From NCBI GenBank assembly GCA_950295325.1, contig OX485809.1, forward strand, positions 41,879,081 through 41,943,080: DNA of 64,000 bases. Reading direction: 5' to 3'. This DNA comes from Polytrichum commune. Lineage: Eukaryota > Streptophyta > Polytrichopsida > Polytrichales > Polytrichaceae. Made by a program: the position numbers and the translations under genes. The notes beneath the pieces were generated by a model. That model was not told where the DNA came from. It did no database searches and saw only the letters and a list, made by a program, of their open reading frames with translations. This document shows, one piece after another, positions 2,304 through 60,812 of the stretch. How positions within the stretch are numbered: the stretch's first letter is position 1; every line of letters begins with the position of its first letter.

Positions 2304-2519
2304 AGATGTACCCAACGACCTTCACCACAATTCATCCGAGCTTCTCACGCAGACGTCATATCTCATCCATGATAAGTTCTAGGTGTTCATCCATTATTCA
2401 TCCAGTTTCCTCATCCACAGAAACCCGCAAAACCCGCAAAACCCCTCCTAAATCCCGACGGGACAGACTTATCCCATTTAATTGTACCCGCACCCACGAA
2501 TGCTTGCAAATCTGCCGCC

Positions 2520-3648
2520 CATTGGCATGCGCTATCGACCTCGCAACCTTCTCACAACTGGGCGGCGCGCTATCAATATTTCAAGTATGTTTGCGTTTAA
2601 TCTTTCACCCTGGTCGTTCAGCAGGCTTTGTTGTTGGATTGAGAGAGACAGAGCACTTTCCCACCCGTGAAGAAACCATCCCGATTCTGCTGGCACTTTA
2701 AGCGAAGTTGGAGTTTGGAATTTTGAGTTTGGGTTTAGGTTCCTCGGTGTCACCGTGTTCTATCTATCTGGATAGGCTAGGCTTGAGTTCTCTTCCTTTA
2801 GGTTCCAACTTCCCACGTGATCCTCCTCCCTACCTATTGAACGAACCGTCACTCGCCCATTTGCGCACAATCGGCTTCGCAAACTTCTCACAACTGCTGG
2901 GTGCTGCGAATTCCCATGGATGTTGGGTTTGTAATTTGACCCTGCTGGTTTTGAGCAGTTATTCATCGAGAGAGTGCTTTATCTTCTCAGCTGTGAAAAG
3001 ATTATCCAGACTGTGGTTGCGCATCAGATGAAGTTAGAGTTGGGATTTGAGTTGTAGTTCCTCGGTTACATCGTGTATGATCTGTCTGGCTGGGCGGGCT
3101 CCTCTTCCCCATTGGGCTCAACAAACAAGCACCATTTGGGTGTTGTCTGAAGGCCTGCATTGAGTTTCTTTCGGAGGTCTGGGGCTTGGGTGTTTTGGAC
3201 GTTGCACCTCGTATTGTCAGATGGTAGGAAGAAAGAAGGTAGGAAGGAAGGCTGGTTTCTATGCAGTTACCGTTATTGCATCTCGCCTACATTACACTAG
3301 GCTTTGATTCTGAGGGCCCCTGATGCGATCTCCTCTTTAAACTGTTAGTGGGCCCCTTTTACTCCCAAAGCGGGTCTAGGTCCTCCAAATCATCTAGCCC
3401 CGCTTATGGTTATTGATGCATTTGTTGCCTTGGAATGTGGATGGGCATCAAACTTTTAGTTCATTGCTTCGTAGTGTTTGGCTTGTGCTGCAATACCCTA
3501 GTTGAATTCAGGGTGAAATGAAGTAACGTTAAAATTCTGTCATCGGGCCTCACTCTCATACGCATTTCCTTTTGCACCGCCCTGTTTCTGCAAGAGTACT
3601 CTGAAAATGTTATCAAACTCTCTTTCTCTCTCTCTCCGTGTTCCAGAC
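2520..3648 (+). promoter_or_regulatory. Upstream module copy A (putative promoter/5' UTR intron)
   Basis: This block lies directly upstream of the HACD-like coding region and is homologous to 56258-57433, which lies upstream of the unrelated VAN3-binding-like gene. Matches run nearly end to end, for example CACCCTGGTCGTT, GGTTTAGGTTCCTCGG, AAGATTATCCAGACTG and TGGATGGGCATC, with small indels. Homology stops just after a CT-rich tract and GTGTTCCAG (AG at 3645-3646), which looks like a 3' splice site. The block also holds an internal imperfect tandem duplication (about 2533-2800 against 2866-3110). I infer a promoter, a 5' UTR exon and an intron; no transcript data support this here. It could instead be a copy of a repeat family captured by both genes. 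Confidence 0.55.
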
Positions 3649-3730
3649 TTCTTCGTCTGCGAGTTGGAGATGGATAACTTGGTTGCAGAAAGGTGAATTA
3701 TACTATCTGAAACGGTGAAGGGTGTGCTTT

Positions 3731-6503
3731 ATGATGGGGGGCTTATCCAAGGCCTACCTGACATGTTACAATGGAGTTCAATCAGTTGGTTGGTAAGTTT
3801 TGGATCTCCTTCAGCTCTAAATGGTATTTGATTTTGAGATCCGTGTTTTGCATTCAGATAGTAAAGGTTAGGTATGTTAGTATATGATGCATGTGAGGTC
3901 TACGCACGAGGGTCAACCCTCGTAGTACAATGCTGTTATGATAGAATGGCAACCTGCGTTAGGAAAATCCTGTTACGGTATTATGTTGATGTTAAGTGAA
4001 GGATAAGGATGTGAATTATGTCTTTCATTACTAATTACACTGGTGGAATGTGGTTTTTTTGGTTAGGGCGGTAGTGTTGGTAAGGGTAGCCAATCATGCT
4101 TTTGAAAGTAAGTCATTACTGGGAGGATATGAAGCAGCCGGCTCCCTTGTATGTAAGTATCTTTATGTCTTCACTCTACTTTGTCTTGACTTTTTTATTT
4201 GATGACATCAGTATAGCTGGAATGTTGTTCTCATTGTTGAAGCTTCGAAATGCTTTTGTCTTCATTGCTCTGCTCTTATTACTAATGAGAAAGCTATGTG
4301 GGAGAATAATATTTCCTTAAGTGGGTGATGTTGGCTAGGTTTGCTTCAGCTGGCTGCCTTTCTAGAGATTGTACATTCTGCTATGGGTATGCACCACATT
4401 CTATGTTCCTACCTGCACCCTTTGTATGTTATAATTTATTTAAAAATGTGGGTTGAAAGTCGGACAGAAAGTGTAGTTTGTAATTACAAGTTGATTGGTG
4501 TTCAACCTTGCTTCTAGATGTACTCATTCCTGGTTTTCATTAAACCTCTGATTTGGAGTGCCAAGGTGCTGAGTGGGGGATTTGCATTATCTCTTTGAAG
4601 GTTTGGTCCGCACAGGGACTGTGTTTGCGTTCATGCAGTGGTTGGGTCGAAGTCACGTGCTTTTTGCACTTATTGCCAAGATTCCTGAGGTACTCCATAG
4701 CGGTCTGTTCATCCAAATGGGTTCTATTTGACGAGCTCTTTGTAGCCTAGAACATTGTGGTTACTTTTTTGGGTAGTGCGGTTGCTCTCCATATTCCCAT
4801 GTGTTCTTTTAGAATTGCAGCATGCAAGTGAAGTTTGTGATCCTCATTGAAGTTTCCTAATGCAGTTCGTGAACCCTTGCAGGTGCAACAACAACCGCCT
4901 GTTCTCATAACTTTCTTAGCATGGTCTATGGCAGAGGTGCGATTCTATTATATCCCCACTGTGTACTGTCTGCTGTTGCCTTATCTAACATGCGCATGCA
5001 TATGATATTGATGGATAGAGAGGTTGTCACTTAACTAATACAGTGATTTCGTAAATATTTATTGGACTCATGTTCATGTGGCTGAAATGGTTTGGCAGGT
5101 AATTCGATATCCACAGTATGCTCTCTCTTTGATAGGGCTGTGCCCACACTGGTTGACCTGGTTACGGTACGTGATTCATGCTCTCCTTTCTGCTTTACTC
5201 TTACCATCATAAGTATCCCTCTTAATAGTACATACCTGAAATGCAGAAGACTGTAACCTAGTTGTGGATTCAATCCAATTTGAGGATTTTAATGTGAAGT
5301 TGTAAGAACTCTCTGGAAGTTCGAAATACATACTAATTTGAGGTCCTAGTATCGTAATTCTGCTTTGCATCACATCAAGTGAAGCAAAAATGAGTTCATT
5401 GTGATCACATTTTTGTGGTGTGCAGGAGTTCAATTTGCCTGAGATAGTAGTAGTCTTTTTCCTGACTCTAAGCACTTCTTGCAGATACACGGCTTTCATA
5501 GTGCTTTATCCAATTGGAGCACTTTATGGTGAAAGTAAGTGATGCCTTAACATGTTCAATCAATAATGGAAAGTTCAGAATAGATTTGCTACAGTGGTAC
5601 ATATGCATCATAAACTCCGTGGGGTATGGTTCAAGTGATGATAACCTAGTTGAATCTGACAAGAATGATGATTCTTTAATATCCGTTGTATGATGAACAC
5701 TATACCCCAACAGAGTAATGAGAAGTGAAATATTTATCTTCAGAATTAAATTCAGTCCTTGCCCATGTTCTAGGAGTAACCATGTTGTCCTCATAGTTGC
5801 CAGATGAGGAACACTACATATTGATGAAATCTGTTCAATAATATGTTTTCACTGGCTCTAGATTGATTTTATGGGTTATTGAATGGTTCCAAGCAGGTTG
5901 TACTAACAGTGCATAGTCCTGTTGATAGTAATCACAAGAGGAGATGATCTTATCAGATGTGGCAGTAAAAAAAACTCAATTGACTTCTTTCAAGCCCCCT
6001 TTTTGTGAATGAATAATATATGGATGTGTGTTTGGTGTTTAAACTGCAGTGCTTACGATGTATTCATCGCTGGATTTTATCAAGAAACAAAAGCTTTATG
6101 GAGATTATTTCAAGTGGCTACCATTTGACTATCACAGTTTCGTTGTAGTGAGTTTTCTAACAGTCAAGTTCATCTTCTCAAGTCCAATTGAGAATAGTCT
6201 TAGAGCCATAGCCATTGTAATGGGAATAAACTGTGACTGAAGGTGCCTCAAGATATTTATCTGTTGATTATATTCTGCAAATTTTCTAGCTGAAATACAA
6301 TGGTACATGCTAGTCAATATAACTTTGATTTTCTTGCTTACATTAGTTTTTTGGATATGGTAATGCAGGGGGTGATGGTCGCATATCCTTTCCTGTGGCT
6401 GTTGCTGTACCTCCATATGTTCAGGCAGCGAAGATCAAAATTATTGAGGAAGGGGAGTTCCAACAACAGACGGAAAGCAGGTCGACCCAAGCGTGTAGAT
6501 TAA
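3731..6503 (+). CDS. HACD: Very-long-chain 3-hydroxyacyl-CoA dehydratase (PTPLA/HACD family), 9 exons
   Basis: Coding exons are 3731-3792, 4067-4152, 4339-4386, 4601-4689, 4883-4936, 5099-5166, 5485-5534, 6050-6147 and 6369-6503. Together they make 690 nt, 229 aa plus stop, all with GT-AG introns and matching phases. The family removes water from 3-hydroxyacyl-CoA in the third step of very-long-chain fatty acid elongation, as a multi-pass ER membrane protein. Visible family landmarks are the N-terminal MMGGLSKAYLTCYNGVQ, LQLAAFLEIVHSAMG, AWSMAEVIRYPQYAL, RYTAFIVLYPIG and the basic C-terminal tail after YLHMFRQRRSKL. The likely catalytic pair is Tyr144 (in LYPIG) and Glu152, inferred from the yeast Phs1 Tyr/Glu pair; the spacing here is eight residues rather than seven. 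The start matches the short family N-terminus. The N-terminal motif resembles the plant class distinct from PASTICCINO2, but I did not verify that by alignment. The upstream region is the duplicated module. Length is normal and no frame break was found. Confidence 0.93.
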
Positions 6504-10767: not shown

Positions 10768-11037
10768 ATTCTCATTAGTGAGAGTTCATTCATCTTCGCG
10801 AATGAGATGAACCACTTTAGACACTTCCATACGTCGTCGGCTCCTTGTCTCAAGGGTTTCAAAAATACCAAGTTTTAGTAGTTTTAAAAATCCTAGTCTA
10901 ATCTAATACTTAAGGCATCAATATAAAGGGGTATAGACATAAAAACATAAATAACGCCTCATATAGAAGCAAGTGGGGGCTTCATGTGTTGTCAACCTAT
11001 CACTACTAATCCGGTTATTTTTAAGAAAAATTAACAT

Positions 11038-11415
11038 GGGCGGACGTTAAATACCCCCTCACGAACTTTCGGAGGTATCGAATCCGGGTTGGGGCAACCC
11101 TTAGAAATTTTCTAAACCCGACCGAAAATTGTTGTCCACCTTGCCCAACTTCGAAAAAAACATTGCCCTTGCATTCTTGAAGGCTTCTTGACTACAAATC
11201 CCATTTTGAATGCACTTCACCTTCAAGGTCTAAAATCCAATATATATGTGCACTTCCAATTAGCAAATAAGCAATTGATTGGGATTTCATTCCAGAAGTG
11301 AAGCCATCAATGAAGCACGCAATTAACTTGGAGGTCAAAAACATTACAAAATCCTCATTATCATTGAGGTTATAATTTTGTGACTTACCATTTAAAATTA
11401 TATGTCATTCTAATG
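11038..11415 (+). mobile_element. Partial Mutator-type terminal repeat (diverged)
   Basis: It resembles the left arm of the Mutator-type element at 19498-20642. It starts GGGCGGACGTTAAATACCCC, continues through CACGAACTT and CATTCTTGAAGGC, then GACTACAAATCCCAT, CCAATATATATGTGCACTTCCA and TTGAGGTTATAATTTT. Divergence is substantial, roughly one in four bases by eye. No matching inverted arm was found downstream, so this looks like an old, truncated or solo copy. Confidence 0.7.
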
Positions 11416-12131
11416 ATAGATTAGTGCAAGTGTTCATAAGATGACAAAAATAAAACAATGAAGATAGAATAGAAAACATAGAACAAAAAATTTAAATATA
11501 AAATTTATTTTTTAGGTAATATAATATAAGGTATAAATAAATGATATGTTATTTGGAATTAGACTTGTGGACAACGTTATGGATGGGGTATACTCAAAAA
11601 ATCATAAGTTTCTGACTATAGCCTATTTGAATTACTGTAATAATTTATCCTCGTCACATGGTATATATTAGTTATTTTAAAATAAATTTAATTATAAATT
11701 ATAAATGATTATTGAATTGATTTTTTTAGTTCACCGATTTATCATAAGGTGATATATATTATTTTGACATATTACAAATTTTTGAGCAATCACACCCGTG
11801 CAAAATAAATGAATTATGAACAAAAAAAATGTTCATGACAACACCTCATAATTATATATTGCACACATTGATATCTTGCGATATTTATCAAAATAAGCAT
11901 GTGGAATTCAAAGCCACATCATGGCGTTGGAAATAACTCATGGGAGGTTAGAAAATAGGCTTCGAGCATCCAAGGCCACATCATTGCCCCTTGCTAACTA
12001 ATTAATATTAATAAAATAAGTATGAGGGAGAAAATAAGTCTTACATGGCAACTCGGAGGTGTTTCACTAAAGTAAGCTCCATCCGAGCTTCTTGATGGAC
12101 TCATCCGATTTTTGTTACCGGATGACTTTAC
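11416..12131. other. Very AT-rich intergenic DNA
   Basis: Long A/T runs and no open frame worth calling. Confidence 0.6.
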
Positions 12132-19488: not shown

Positions 19489-19497
19489 TTTAATAAG

Positions 19498-20642
19498 GGG
19501 GGACGTTAAGTACCCCCCCACGAACTTCTAGGGATTCCATATTCGGGCGGGGGCAGCCCTCCCACGAAATTTCTGGCCCCGCCCGAAAATAGCTGCCCGC
19601 CCCGCCCGAAAACGAAAAAAACATTGCTCTTCCATTCTTGAAGGCCGCTTGACTACAAATCCCATATTGAGTGCACTTCACCTTCAAGGTCTCAAATCCA
19701 ATATATATGTGCACTTCCACCTAGTAAATAAGGCATTAAATGGGATTTCATTCCGGAAGTGAAACCATCAACCAAGAATGTAATTAACTTGGAAGTCAAA
19801 AAATTAGAAAATCCTCATCAACATTGAGGTTATAATTTTTATAACTTACCATTTGAAATTGTCTTCATCATTCTTAAATGACACTTAAATTTAGTGTGCT
19901 GATGTGGTATGTATATTTTATAATATTTTAGATAATTCTGGCTACTTTCAAGAATATTCATACGCACTTATTCTAATTAAGTGTGATTTAACGTAATTAT
20001 GTCTAATTAATTCTGATTAATCCTAATTAATCCCAAATAAATCAGAAAGTATTCTTTCCAAATTAAGTAAGACTAATTAATCCTAAAATTTAATTACTGT
20101 AATTAACTCCAATTAAATCCGGTAATTAAAATAATTGATTAATTAGTTCCATTAAGTATATTTTATAAATAAGTGCGTATGAATATTCTTGAAAGTAGCC
20201 AGAATTATCTAAAATATTATAAAATATACATACCACATCAGCACACTAAATTTAAGTGTCATTTAAGAATGACGAAGACAATTTCAAATGGTAAGTTATA
20301 AAAATTATAACCTCAATGTTGATGAGGATTTTCTAATTTTTTGACTTCCAAGTTAATTACATTCTTGGTTGATGGTTTCACTTCCGGAATGAAATCCCAT
20401 TTAATGCCTTATTTACTAGGTGGAAGTGCACATATATATTGGATTTGAGACCTTGAAGGTGAAGTGCACTCAATATGGGATTTGTAGTCAAGCGGCCTTC
20501 AAGAATGGAAGAGCAATGTTTTTTTCGTTTTCGGGCGGGGCGGGCAGCTATTTTCGGGCGGGGCCAGAAATTTCGTGGGAGGGCTGCCCCCGCCCGAATA
20601 TGGAATCCCTAGAAGTTCGTGGGGGGGTGTTTAGCGTCCCCC
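19498..20642. mobile_element. Non-autonomous Mutator-type element with 475-bp TIRs
   Basis: The arms are 19498-19972 and 20168-20642, both exactly 475 bp, and are nearly perfect inverted repeats around an AT-rich 195-bp core. TTTAATAAG lies at 19489-19497 and again at 20643-20651, a perfect 9-bp target-site duplication. Long terminal inverted repeats and a 9-bp TSD are the hallmarks of Mutator-like elements. The ends are G/C-rich with GGGCGGGGC-type repeats. Visible differences between arms are few and cluster at the very ends, suggesting recent insertion. No transposase is encoded; the roughly 70-codon frame present in each arm is a mirror-image consequence of the palindrome. Confidence 0.9.
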
Positions 20643-20651
20643 TTTAATAAG

Positions 20652-51721: not shown

Positions 51722-52063
51722 CCTGGGGGGGGTTAGTCATTGGTTGGAGTAGCAATATACATGCGAAGAAATGATAGGGTATTTTAAAAACATGGGGGCA
51801 AAAAATTATAAATGGACTTAAGAGTAATATAGGGTATCAAAAATGACATTGGACATCTTTAAAGTACTATAGGGTATGGAATAATAGGTAATTTGGAATT
51901 ATAAGTAATGCAAGCCATTTTTCTATTAACCCAAAGTAGAAAGTTACATAATGATAGCATGTGAAAAAAAGAAGAGAATTAAAAGTAATACCCCCCTATA
52001 AAATAGTGGTTGTTCGCACCTATATCCTTAACTTTTAAACACACTGCCCCCCCCCCCCGCGAG
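51722..52063. mobile_element. Poly-G-ended MITE, copy 2 (8-bp TSD)
   Basis: 342 bp, nearly identical to 402-745 over its whole length. It is flanked by AAAAAACC at 51714-51721 and 52064-52071. The G and C runs at its ends vary in length between copies, as homopolymers do. Confidence 0.85.
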
Positions 52064-54802: not shown

Positions 54803-56257
54803 AAATATCACACATATGCCATTGAAATGTTGGGTACAACACATAGCGATTGTAAGAAAAGGTCTGATTAGTTGCTTTGGTACACAACATTAACCTACGC
54901 ACGGTGGTCCCCCCCCCAATAGTAGACGACCATTTGTGGAGACTTTTCTAATTGGGCAAGGTGGGAGCAAAGATCATGTCGACAAATTCAATGGGCAATC
55001 AATTTCAAAGGCACCAAACTTGACCACCGATATTGACAACCCATCATCGTGGCACAATTTTCATTTACAAAAAAACATATGAATAGTGTGGAGTTCCAAT
55101 TATGGGCCATGTAGACCACAACCACATGGTCCGCGCACAATCAAATGTAGCCTTTAAAGCAATACATTAATGATCTTTATTGTTTAGTTTGTTCAATGAA
55201 ACAAAATTTGGCATATGTCACATGAACCGTTATCCTTAGTCACCACTCTAACTTAGTGGAATTTTTTATTTAGTTCTAACTAAAAGCTAGACGAACTTGA
55301 AATTAGCTTGTTATTATTAATGTCCAACTTAATTCCACATCAAGCTAGTATTACTAACTTAATCGAAATTCTTCATTGTCTTGGAACTAAACAACAAAGT
55401 TTATTAACGCACTTGGGTCAATGCCATCCTCATTATCGCCTTTTAAGCAGTATCCATAAATGGGGCCTGACGTGTAGAGTTGGCTACACTATAGTAGGTT
55501 AGTAAGGTCCAGATGGACGCTGCATGGTTGGCAACTCATAGAGAGGCACATGCGTTAGTCTTTTTGACTGGCTCTAACCTTGTCAGAGAGGAGATTGAAA
55601 ACCCATGAATGTTAGTACCTTGCCTTGTATATGAGTCCACGTTGAGAGAATTGGTAGTAGATTGAACGCAACACTTCCTAAACTTTTAACCCAAATTATT
55701 TTGCAACTCCGGGGTAGTAAATGGGAATTGTCTGGTATCATCTCCAACTTATTCCCGGGTCCACCCGTATCTGTTATGAAGCTGAAGAATCTCATGGCTT
55801 AAAAAAAGATGATAGAGTCAGCAGAAAAAAACTTGAAATAGTTTGAAATAATAAGGCGCCTCACATAACATACTCAAGAGAAGAATGAGTGTAATTGTGG
55901 CAATGTGGATGATTTTGAGTGTGGGAAAATAGATACAACCTAGGCTTCCAAAATTTCACCTCACCGGAGGCTCTATTACATACCTACTGACAGGCTAGCA
56001 GAAAGCAGTGGAGGTGTGAGTTACTATTCTAGTAAGTTACTAGTAACTCCGGATACTGGGCCCTGTACCCGTGCGCTGCAGGCTGGCCCGATTCAAGCCT
56101 CCGAGCACAAGGCAAACGAGGAGTGTCGTTTTGTCCGCCATCGCCACTCATCCCCTTGCAGCTCGCATACCGATCTTCCACCGAACTCTCCCCACACCTG
56201 TAGCACCATTCGCTGTGATGCCCGACCTTCTTAGCTCTCCAACGAGCCATCACTCGC
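54803..56257. other. Intergenic DNA
   Basis: Includes a C run at about 54909-54917. The composition becomes less AT-rich toward 56000 as the upstream module begins. No gene is supported. Confidence 0.4.
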
Positions 56258-57433
56258 CCCTTTCGACGTCCTATCGACTTCGTAATCCTCTCACAACTGG
56301 GCATTGATTTCCAAGTATGTTGGGTTTCAAATCTCACCCTGGTCGTTGAGCGGGCTTTGTTGTTAGATTGAAAGAGACAGAGAACATTGTTTCTCACCTG
56401 TGGAGAAATCATCCCGATTTTGCTTATTCAATATATGAAGTTGGAGTTGGAATTCCGAGGTCGGGTTCGGGTTCGGGTTTAGGTTCCTCGGTGACACCGT
56501 ATTCGATCTCTCTGGATGCGCTAGGCCTGAGTCCTCTTCCTTTACCTTTCAACTTCCCACGTGGTTTTCATCCTTACCTCTTGAGCGAGCCATCTCTCGC
56601 CCATTTTCCCACCATTGACTTCGCAAACTTTTCACAACTGCTGGGTGCTATGAATTCCCACGGATGTTGGGTTTAAAATCTAATCCTGTTAGTTTTGAGC
56701 AGTTTTTATTTTTATAACATTGAGTGTGCTTTTCTGCTCAGCTGTGAAAAGATCATCCAGACTGTGTTGCGCATCAGATGAAGTTGGAGTTAGGATTTGA
56801 GTTTGGGTTCTAGTTCCGCGGTTATATCGTGATGATCTGGTTGGCTGGGCAAGCTCCTCTTCCTTTCTCTTCCATTGGGCTCAGCAAACAAGCAGCATTC
56901 GGGTGTTGTCTGAAGGTCTGCATTGAGTTTCTTTCAGAGGTCTGGGGTTTGGGAGTTTGGACCTTGCACCTTGTATTGTCAGATGGTGGGAAGGAAGGGC
57001 ATGATTCATATGCAGTTACCGTTATTGCATCGCGCCTACACTAGGGTTGTGAATTCGCCTACACTAGGCTTGGAGCCTGAGGCCCTTGGTGTGATCCCCT
57101 CTTCAAACTTTCACTGGGTAGCTTTTACTTCCAAAATGGATCTAGGTCCTCCAAAATGTCTAGCCCCGCTTGTGGTTATTGACGCACATGTAACCTTGGA
57201 ATGTGGATGGGTATCAACATTTTTGTTCATTGCTTCGTAGGGTTTGGCTTGAGCTGCAATGCCCTAGTTTAATTTAGGTGAAATGGAGAAACAACAAAAT
57301 TTTGTCATTGTGCCTCACTCTCACACGCATCTGTTTTTCTGTACCGCCCTGCTTCTGCAAGGGTACTCTGGAAATATAATTTAACCTGAACTCTCTCTCT
57401 CTCTCTCTCTCTTTCTCCTGCGTGTTCCAGACT
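56258..57433 (+). promoter_or_regulatory. Upstream module copy B (putative promoter/5' UTR intron)
   Basis: Homologous to 2520-3648, in the same orientation and likewise upstream of a gene. It keeps the same internal tandem duplication and ends with a CT microsatellite of about 30 bp (57390-57419) and CGTGTTCCAG (AG at 57429-57430), after which the two loci lose similarity. That end has the form of an intron 3' end with an expanded polypyrimidine tract. Small differences include an extra segment around 57045-57062. I infer a promoter plus 5' UTR intron for the downstream gene. Confidence 0.55.
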
Positions 57434-57862
57434 ATCCATGCACGTGAGCTGCAGCAATGTGCGCCTTGCAATCCGTGGGTCTTTACTTGCATATGATGTT
57501 TTTGGTTGGATCGAATTACGACGGCGTGAATTTCTGAGTGACTGGAATTTGGAGCAGAGTGGTTTCTGTTACTCAAGGAGAGATTCTTGTGTTATCCATA
57601 CTGAAGTTGTTGCCTTGTCTTTCCACCAGGCTGCCAGAGCTCGTTGCCAGGATTTCCGACACCCGTAGCACTTCTGAGACACCAGCAGCTTGCGAGGCCA
57701 TAACCATTCGTTTTAACCTTGAGCATTGCCCCGGGCTGGTGGCAGACATAGAGTGTGGACCGATGACATCATTCATGCCATCTTCAACATGATAACTGAT
57801 TCTGTGATGCTGAGATGTGAATTGTGGTAGATCCATGCTTGTGGGCATCTTCACCGGAACTC

Positions 57863-60812
57863 ATGGGGAGCATGAACACAACCCCCAACGGTTGTTATGT
57901 AAACCTGTCGTCTGCCAGGGCGAATCAAGACTCCATGCGGTCAGCCAGGGATCAGGGCCGGATGCTTCTGCTGGAACCTCCAATAGAGCACTGGATGGAA
58001 CAAAGAAAGAACTGCTCCCCTCCACCTTACTTAGATTCCAGTAAGGGTTGCAGTCCGGGCCGAGGCTTGAAAAGCAGCGACCCGGACAAGGACATGTACA
58101 TAATGTTGGATCCAGACAAATTCCCTGCCCCACATCTCGCCAACATAGAGGAAGACTATCCGCTGTTCCCCAAGCCTTTCCCGGCTCCTGAAACTCCTCA
58201 AGAGCTCATGGAATTCCTCTCTCGCTCCTGGAGTATTCCTTCTGTGGATGTGGCCAGGCATGTGGGCTATGTCATCAAGGCCATTGAGGCAGGACCCCAC
58301 CACACGTCACTCGAAGAGCCTACACTAGAAACTGCCCCCTTCACTTTCGCCTCGAACCTCACTTCTCAGTTTGTGGTGGATCGATTGATGGCTCCCACTT
58401 CGGTGAGTTCTGCTATTTAGTTATTTCTTGTTGTTTTGTGAATTGTACAATTGTACAAGTGGAACCTTACCTTTGCAAAGCATTGTTGGGGTCTAGGATC
58501 CTACAATAGCTTCGACAAAGGTGACCCCAGCAGTCTGCCCTCAACCCATTGTAATGCTTGGGCTGGTTACCTATGTCAAATGGTATACCTATGGTAATGG
58601 TACTTTATGCCGTGTTTTGCGGATTGTACAATGGTTCTGCATAATGCTGGTAGGTTACCTTCGTCAAAGCATTGTTGGCGTCCAGGATTCTACAGAACCT
58701 TTGGACAATTATAGCTTTGAAGAAGGTAACCCCAGCATTCTGCCCTCAATCATTGTGATGCTGGGGTTGGTGACCTATGTCAATTGGGTTACCTTTGTTA
58801 ATGCTTAGAATGGTGAGTTGCTCTTGCCAAAGCTCTAAGCGTTGAGTTGCATCAAGTGGCCACCGTTAACAAATCAGGCATTGCAGGAGGCATCACCCTT
58901 TGTTTCACGAAGGAATTCATACAGCAGCGGCCCATTGGCATTATTGAGCCCTCCTCTGTCACCGCGAACAGTGGAGGATTACAAGGTACTTCTTGTTCCT
59001 CTTTGTGTTCCCTTGGGCTGCATAATGGTGAAAGGGGGAGGCTTATGTTAAGTTGAATTGACTCAGTGGTGCTTACGAGTGTTGGTTGTATCTTTATAGG
59101 AATTCCTGCTATTACCAAGAGAGGCCCCTGAAATTGCCAAATATAATTTCTTGTATATAGAAGGGAGGTTAATCTGCGCACTCTGATGCTCCCGAGTTTC
59201 TGTGAACAGTTTCGAAGGAGCTTCAGCTTGGTTCGGGGACCCCTCTCTGGGATGTCCATGGGGCGCTGGATAAAGGATTTCAAGACCAGGAAGAAAGAAG
59301 CTAATAGATGTCAGAATGCGCAAGTCCACGCCGCCGTGTCGGTTGCTGGGGTTGCTGCTGCCATAGCTGCTGTCACAGCTGCAACTGCAGCATCAGCACA
59401 AGAGGATGCTTCCTCAAAAACTTCCATGGCTGTTGCCTCCGCAGCTGCTCTGGTTGCAGCCCAGTGTGTGGAGGTGGCAGAAAGCTTGGGTGCAGATCGT
59501 GATCGTCTTGCATCAGTTGTCAGCTCTGCTGTTAGTGTTCGTTCAGCTGGAGATATTATGACCCTAACCGCTGCAGCTGCCACATGTGAGTAGCTTTCTT
59601 TGCGTCACAAAGATGAAAATCATGTTGTGCATAAATGCTGTTCCCTATTTGAGCTTTTTGTAAGTAAGATTAGATGATTAACAGAAACCTGTTCACCTCC
59701 TTTTGCTCACAGCGCTGCGAGGAGCCGCAACATTGAGGGCAAGAAGAATAAAAGAGGCACGAAGGCTATCTGCTGTCACACCCTATGACAAAGCGACCAG
59801 CTGCCCTTCCATGTCTTTCAGTGGTCAAGATACGGAAACCGAAGAAAGTGAGGCAGAATACAATTGCCATGATATTCTTGCCAGGGGTTTTGAGTTCCTC
59901 AAGAGATCCAAAAATGGTGTGATATATGCTCCCCTTTTTGTTAGGGTTTACATATCAAGTTTTGCAAGTTTTGGGAAAGGAGGAAGGTGCCATGTAAAGT
60001 GCATGTAAATTGTTAAACATTTCTGGCTGGAATCTTAAAGTATCCTAGTTACTATGATTCACATTGTGAAGCATTGAGTCCCCTTTGCAGTGAAACTTTG
60101 AAGTTCCATATTTTTGCTTGTCCTCAAGGTGAGGAATAATGCTAGATACAATTCTAATATACAGCAGTCTTACAGAACTGTTTCTGATGGTGGGTACAGG
60201 TGACTTGCATTGGAAGAATGTGTTTGTGTATCTAAACAAAGTTGGCCAGGTCACTATCAAGCTGCAAAGCAAGCACATGAGGGGGGCACTGACAACAAAC
60301 AAAAAGAGTGAGTTGTAGCATCTAAATTTGATGTCAACTATTACATAAAGATACTGGTACCTAGTGTGGGTCGGTCTTTAATATTTTTGAGGGCTAACTG
60401 CTTCAACCTGCAGCTTTTATCTCTAGGAAACTGGTTTCGTTGTCTACTAGAATTGGAATTCAGTGATTATGCTGGATTACATCTGGACCTGTTTCTACCA
60501 GACTCTCTTCTGCATCGTTTCCTTTCAAGACGATGCTGACTTTATTCAAGCTTCTCGGTGATGCAGACTTGTGCCCTGTTTTTGACATTTTTGTGTGTCA
60601 TACTTGCAGGCACTGTATTCCAAGTGTATCCTGATATACCTGCATGGCCAGGGCGAAATATTCTGGATGGCAGTGAGCACCGGCGATACTTTGCTCTTAA
60701 GACTAACAGTGGTGACATGGAATTTGAATGCAAGAACAAGGAGGACCATCAAGTGTGGACAGATGGTATTGCTCGCCTTCTTTACATCTCCAGCCAATGC
60801 CGCAGGAGATAA
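57863..60812 (+). CDS. VAN3-binding/FORKED-like protein (DUF828 plus plant PH-like domain), 6 coding exons
   Basis: Exons are 57863-58402, 58887-58985, 59210-59585, 59713-59916, 60200-60307 and 60610-60812. They total 1530 nt, 509 aa plus stop, all with GT-AG introns and closing phases. The family binds the VAN3 ARF-GAP in Arabidopsis and acts in auxin canalization, PIN trafficking and leaf vein patterning at trans-Golgi and plasma membrane. Landmarks are [18 protein letters not shown] (residues about 116-133, start of DUF828), [33 protein letters not shown], an Ala-rich helical stretch [38 protein letters not shown] and [14 protein letters not shown]. The PH-like domain then runs from about residue 390: [60 protein letters not shown]. 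The start is the first ATG after an in-frame TGA at 57818; a second Met is at codon 4. The upstream module is shared with the HACD gene. No coding defect was seen. Confidence 0.92.

Follow-up and report, generated by a model that had tools for sequence, protein, structure and literature searches.

Two genes about 54 kb apart in Polytrichum commune, one of the HACD type and the other VAN3-binding-like, are preceded by homologous DNA, although the proteins they encode are unrelated. We analysed the whole stretch of 64,000 nucleotides around the two genes (the window), C7:41,879,081-41,943,080 within a 407.8-Mb assembly of 64 contigs. The explanation we favour, as reasonably likely but well short of certain, is that one locus received a leader-intron cassette from the other by DNA-level copying, with the VAN3-binding-like gene as the most likely source and HACD as the recipient, and that the cassette probably enhances expression in both.

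Extent and borders of the shared block

The genes following the two blocks are both intact and fall into different families, PTPLA/HACD on one side and Auxin_canalis plus PH_2 on the other. Their exon borders were placed by hand:

3731..6503, + strand: HACD-type (PTPLA) gene with nine coding exons (exon model; PF04387, E 8.2e-51)
57863..60812, + strand: VAN3-binding-like gene with six coding exons (exon model and Pfam domains Auxin_canalis and PH_2)

The HACD model, with introns bounded by GT/AG, stays open through 229 codons, and the frame of the VAN3-binding-like gene is open over 509 codons (Auxin_canalis, 5.2e-83; PH_2, 7.9e-36).

By BLASTN, 2532-3636 aligns with 56271-57409 in plus/plus orientation, with 914 of 1169 columns identical (78%, E 0.0). 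In a gapped alignment of the HACD-side block (block 1) with the VAN3-binding-side block (block 2), ungapped identity over 2532-3646 is 83% (901/1086 sites), with 113 transitions and 72 transversions and a K2P distance of 0.196. Identical columns mostly number 28-37 per 40-column step, and are fewer at the block ends and near indels. At the right end a CT tract, followed by CGTGTTCCAGACT, is common to both blocks, and similarity stops at 3649/57433. Past the AG only ACT is shared, an anchored extension whose score of 3 is matched by 133 of 1000 shuffles, and in a local comparison of 3647-4066 with 57431-57900 the similarity is no better than chance (matched by 62 of 300 shuffles). Since the similarity beyond the AG is at the level of shuffled sequence, the end of the homology lies no more than 3 nt from the AG. 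At the left end, strong similarity begins at 2532/56271 and extends onward only weakly (score 2, matched by 246 of 1000 shuffles), while the local similarity between 2100-2515 and 55850-56257 is matched by 145 of 300 shuffles; CGCCC at 2516/56255 is the probable left border. Judged from these alignments, the blocks would extend from about 2516 to 3649 (block 1) and from 56255 to 57433 (block 2).

The preliminary description, which had proposed a homologous module in the same orientation upstream of two genes for unrelated proteins, ending after a CT-rich tract at a splice-acceptor-like AG, is borne out on each of these points, and its coordinates (2520-3648 and 56258-57433) lie near those measured.

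A putative first-exon end and leader intron

The features upstream of the two coding regions, as we read them, are as follows:

2516..2584, + strand: end of the putative non-coding exon 1, HACD side (truncated repeat unit A); homologous to 56255-56314, with leftward homology lost at 2516
2585..3646, + strand: putative leader (5' UTR) intron, HACD side, GTATGT...CAG, 1062 nt; best shared donor-like site, T-skew, end of homology at the AG
3647..3730, + strand: putative 5' UTR exon 2 of HACD; no homology to 57431 onward
56100..56254, + strand: 5' sequence of the VAN3-binding-like gene, lying before the shared block and found again in part in the relics L011 (56100-56176) and L004 (56132 onward)
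56255..56314, + strand: end of putative exon 1, VAN3-binding side (unit A whole leftward); border and repeat-unit comparison
56315..57430, + strand: putative leader intron, VAN3-binding side, GTATGT...CAG, 1116 nt; alignment, T-skew, donor-like site
57431..57862, + strand: putative 5' UTR after the acceptor, VAN3-binding side; 10 ATGs

According to this reading, the cassette would begin in the last part of a non-coding exon 1, include the 5' splice site and take in the leader intron, about 1.1 kb, in full as far as its 3' AG. Each gene would then splice exon 1 to its own unrelated exon 2, at 3647 or 57431, and the copied DNA would have its right junction either exactly at the AG or at most 3 nt away, a position that microhomology at the acceptor may explain. 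Being T-rich and near the start, the leader intron would probably enhance expression in both genes. We infer the splicing, the copying direction and the control function of the cassette from features of the DNA.

Among the donor-like sites that the blocks share, CAA|GTATGT at 2585 and 56315 scores highest, with 4.5 in each by a scoring table that gives 0.0 to 5.4 on the eight HACD coding donors. In both blocks the donor-like and acceptor-like sites follow one another in the right order. At 3239 block 1 has a donor-like site that scores a little higher (4.8 vs 4.5) and is absent from block 2; this we count against the cassette reading. Stop codons number 13, 18 and 12 in the three frames of one block and 22, 14 and 12 in those of the other, and 13 of the 16 gaps between the blocks are not multiples of three (3/16 are); with at least 12 stops in every frame and such gap lengths, a coding module was rejected. 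On the gene strand the T-skew is +0.25 over 2586-3646 and +0.26 over 56318-57430, compared with +0.15 in the HACD coding introns, -0.02 at 1-2500 and -0.01 at 8-55 kb, and the 12 highest T-skew windows of 252 are all located in, or extend into, one of the blocks or the HACD gene. It is on the shared donor-like site, the stops, the gap lengths and the T-skew that we read the block as an exon-1 end plus leader intron. The excess of an enhancer-like motif, counted with one mismatch allowed, is weak, since shuffled sequences reach it in 15 and in 66 cases out of 500. A known RNA family was rejected as well, as scanning the whole window against Rfam at the gathering thresholds gave 0 matches.

The idea that a promoter, first exon and 5' UTR intron had been duplicated together can thus be kept in part. 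The intron is favoured by the shared donor-like site, the acceptor-like AG, the T-richness, the non-coding character and the few copies, whereas a shared promoter would be no more than a possibility, the blocks having just 60-69 nt in common before the donor-like site.

Beyond the acceptor, the 10 ATGs at 57431-57862 are odd for a plain 5' UTR and are likewise counted against the cassette reading; given these ATGs, the segment may hold another intron. In the genome search 57431-57880 matched only itself, and similarity to 56100-56254 was not found upstream of HACD. The putative HACD 5' UTR contains an upstream ORF of eight codons (3670-3696).

Direction of copying, relics and alternative explanations

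An older internal direct repeat, of units A and B, is present in both blocks, the two units being 68% alike in block 2. The B units are:

2832..3055, + strand: internal repeat unit B of block 1; 68% like block-2 unit A over the compared columns
56581..56805, + strand: internal repeat unit B of block 2; self-comparison alignments

Leftward of CGCCC, unit A of block 2 continues to match the B units (scores 13 and 15, reached by 0 of 1000 shuffles each), while unit A of block 1 scores 0, 0, 2 and 0 against the four other units. Since the repeat occurs in both blocks it predates their split, and the HACD copy was therefore cut at about 2516. The HACD copy is thus probably the derived one, its left end being cut inside a repeat unit that is kept whole on the VAN3-binding side, although the truncation could instead reflect a later loss at HACD. 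It is this truncation alone that points from the VAN3-binding-like gene to HACD. The DNA upstream of HACD (2300-2525) matched only itself in the genome search. Distances had suggested a slower evolution of block-2 unit A, which we dropped because, with the B units as outgroups, the two A units evolve at equal relative rates (18 vs 17, twice). With the relic L004 (C7:29.02 Mb) as outgroup the rates are 15 vs 6, which we read as L004 being nearer to block 2 and not as polarity. L004, in which some 250 nt of the 5' region from the VAN3 side survive at 74%, is 75% identical to block 2 vs 62% to block 1, and its upstream extension is for that reason not independent proof of polarity. A second relic, L011 (C1:11.83 Mb), matches the VAN3-side 5' region over 81 columns at 79%.

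One could also suppose that a larger segment, block and HACD together, was duplicated in tandem, and that a subsequent deletion removed the second HACD but not its leader, which then stood before the VAN3-binding gene. The common orientation of the blocks and their distance of 54 kb would suit such an event, as would the copying of HACD gene DNA to other places; we nevertheless regard it as unlikely, since a HACD remnant was not found after 57433, the left border is cut on the HACD side, and the deletion would have needed to end at the AG by chance. A direct pair of similar spacing, 410-742 and 51725-52058, has 1603 first-look candidates in the genome, of which 40 were scored and 40 of 40 lie at 96-100%. 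It is a high-copy element and lends no support to a larger duplication; a wider segmental duplication drawn from this pair was rejected.

It is similarly unlikely that the duplication is real while the block is transcribed in neither gene, so that its end at the AG is a coincidence. A break within 3 nt of a given site is improbable, though it can happen, and the shared donor-like site, the acceptor-like AG, the CT tract and the T-richness all suit a leader intron. We attach little probability, too, to the proposal that splicing itself set the right end, the copy having passed through a partly processed pre-mRNA or arisen by acceptor-acceptor recombination, with the same leader-intron control now acting in both genes. 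If that were true, a regulatory intron would have passed naturally from one gene to another, and the same leader intron would exert its control in both a gene for lipid elongation and one for auxin canalisation.

The genome searches skip common words, and their match counts are lower bounds: at least six matches for block 1 and at least ten for block 2, self included, three of the latter being hits of 40-45 bases on or adjoining the CT tract. Pieces of the block were found on C3, C7 and C1. Two whole copies were found, each 5' of an intact unrelated gene; with six block-1 matches (a lower bound) in a 408-Mb genome, the search that had been suggested as a check does return few copies. An abundant repeat was rejected on these lower bounds of 6 and 10 matches and on the different ends of the copies on C3. 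Paralogous matches exist for the HACD family (C2:18.21 Mb) and the VAN3-binding family (C1:1.13 Mb); that the block also accompanies these paralogues was rejected, as none was found there at E 1e-3, upstream DNA included.

Three loci on C3 (L001, L002 and L003) begin at window position 2610 and represent fragments of the HACD copy. In L001 and L003 the matching part ends at 4663, within a HACD exon, and DNA of the HACD gene body is present at 94-95%. These starts and ends indicate that they derive from the HACD locus. Their flanks are common to one another and to L009 (C2:8.51 Mb) and L010 (C4:52.75 Mb), neither of which matches the window at 1e-6, so the element flanks on either side of the captured host-gene piece are also present at loci that lack the piece. 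One terminal sequence, CCGTA(C/T)GTGG adjoining TA, is found in all five loci; the second end of the same copy was not identified. One L009 frame encodes a DDE_1 stretch, as in mariner/pogo-type transposases (E 5.4e-7), while three L010 frames and one other L009 frame tested gave no DDE_1 hit. The C3 loci are thus apparently Pack-Mariner-like captures of HACD DNA. Their K2P distances to block 1 are 0.022-0.034, as against 0.165 between the blocks over the same span, and the capture is therefore probably later than the block duplication. In an unsystematic look, a gene start was recognised at none of L001-L003, L004 and L011.

That the block is itself an old mobile element or dispersed repeat, inserted upstream of both genes, is improbable: its internal repeat and the pieces on C3, C7 and C1 would be in keeping with this, but only two whole copies were found, the C3 copies stem from the HACD locus, and by eye neither a target-site duplication nor a terminal repeat was noticed at the block ends (2516/3649 and 56255/57433).

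Some further observations concern these loci and the window. In L001 (C3:33229500-33238500), positions 2516-5772 on the minus strand are a copy of window 2610-4663, with leader intron and HACD exons and introns at 94-96%, interrupted at 3850-5047 by about 1.2 kb of inserted DNA with ends that, judged by eye, resemble those of CACTA elements. L003 (C3:8837500-8844000) carries a second gene fragment beside the HACD pieces at 3916-4645; it includes a PCI-domain stretch (7.1e-9) that looks eIF3e-like by eye, its first piece (3916-4050) being without a Pfam hit. Interstitial telomere-like CCCTAAA repeats lie at 3785-3816 of L002 (C3:28684500-28692500), within the transposon-associated HACD-leader fragment. 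The window also contains a large palindrome at 19490-20650, 91% self-complementary over 1172 columns and related to 11031-11416 (81%).

Comparison with known systems

Leader introns can strongly affect expression in plants (review PMC2682935). The natural copying of a whole leader intron between unrelated genes, which remains our preferred reading, would provide a test of whether regulatory introns move as units, and the same case would test whether intron transfer couples two genes. Among the matches listed in the open-licence literature, we found no report linking HACD with VAN3 or FORKED1.

Pack-Mariners, which are Pack-TYPE transposons, are known in rice and maize, and the HACD fragments on C3 resemble them in a terminal sequence flanked by TA and a DDE_1 relative (PMC8903248); in the blocks of the window, such ends were not seen. 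A gene family of Schistosoma japonicum with a similar core promoter and signal sequence likewise involves the dispersed duplication of a 5' gene part (PMC3434034), and differs in its coding signal sequence, its many copies and in belonging to an animal parasite.

The closer parallels come from rice. For rpl27, promoter shuffling has been described in which a 5' region was gained by chromosomal recombination (Ueda et al. 2006, as cited in PMC2631504); in that second-hand account rpl27 is said to have gained a promoter, whereas only 60-69 nt are shared upstream of the donor-like site in our case. For rpl6 (OsRpl6-1), the 5' UTR and the 5' part of a leader intron were gained through a PIF/Harbinger-like element (PMC2631504), and here as there, an unrelated coding region is joined to non-coding DNA of a first exon and leader intron that other loci also possess. 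In rpl6 the shared part begins upstream of the cDNA 5' end, stops near mid-intron and has numerous transposable-element copies, whereas the blocks described here end at the 3' AG and occur in two whole copies, and a transposable-element carrier for them was not found. With such precedents in plants the surprise is only moderate: swaps of 5' ends are already known, and what is unusual at this locus is the end at the 3' AG.
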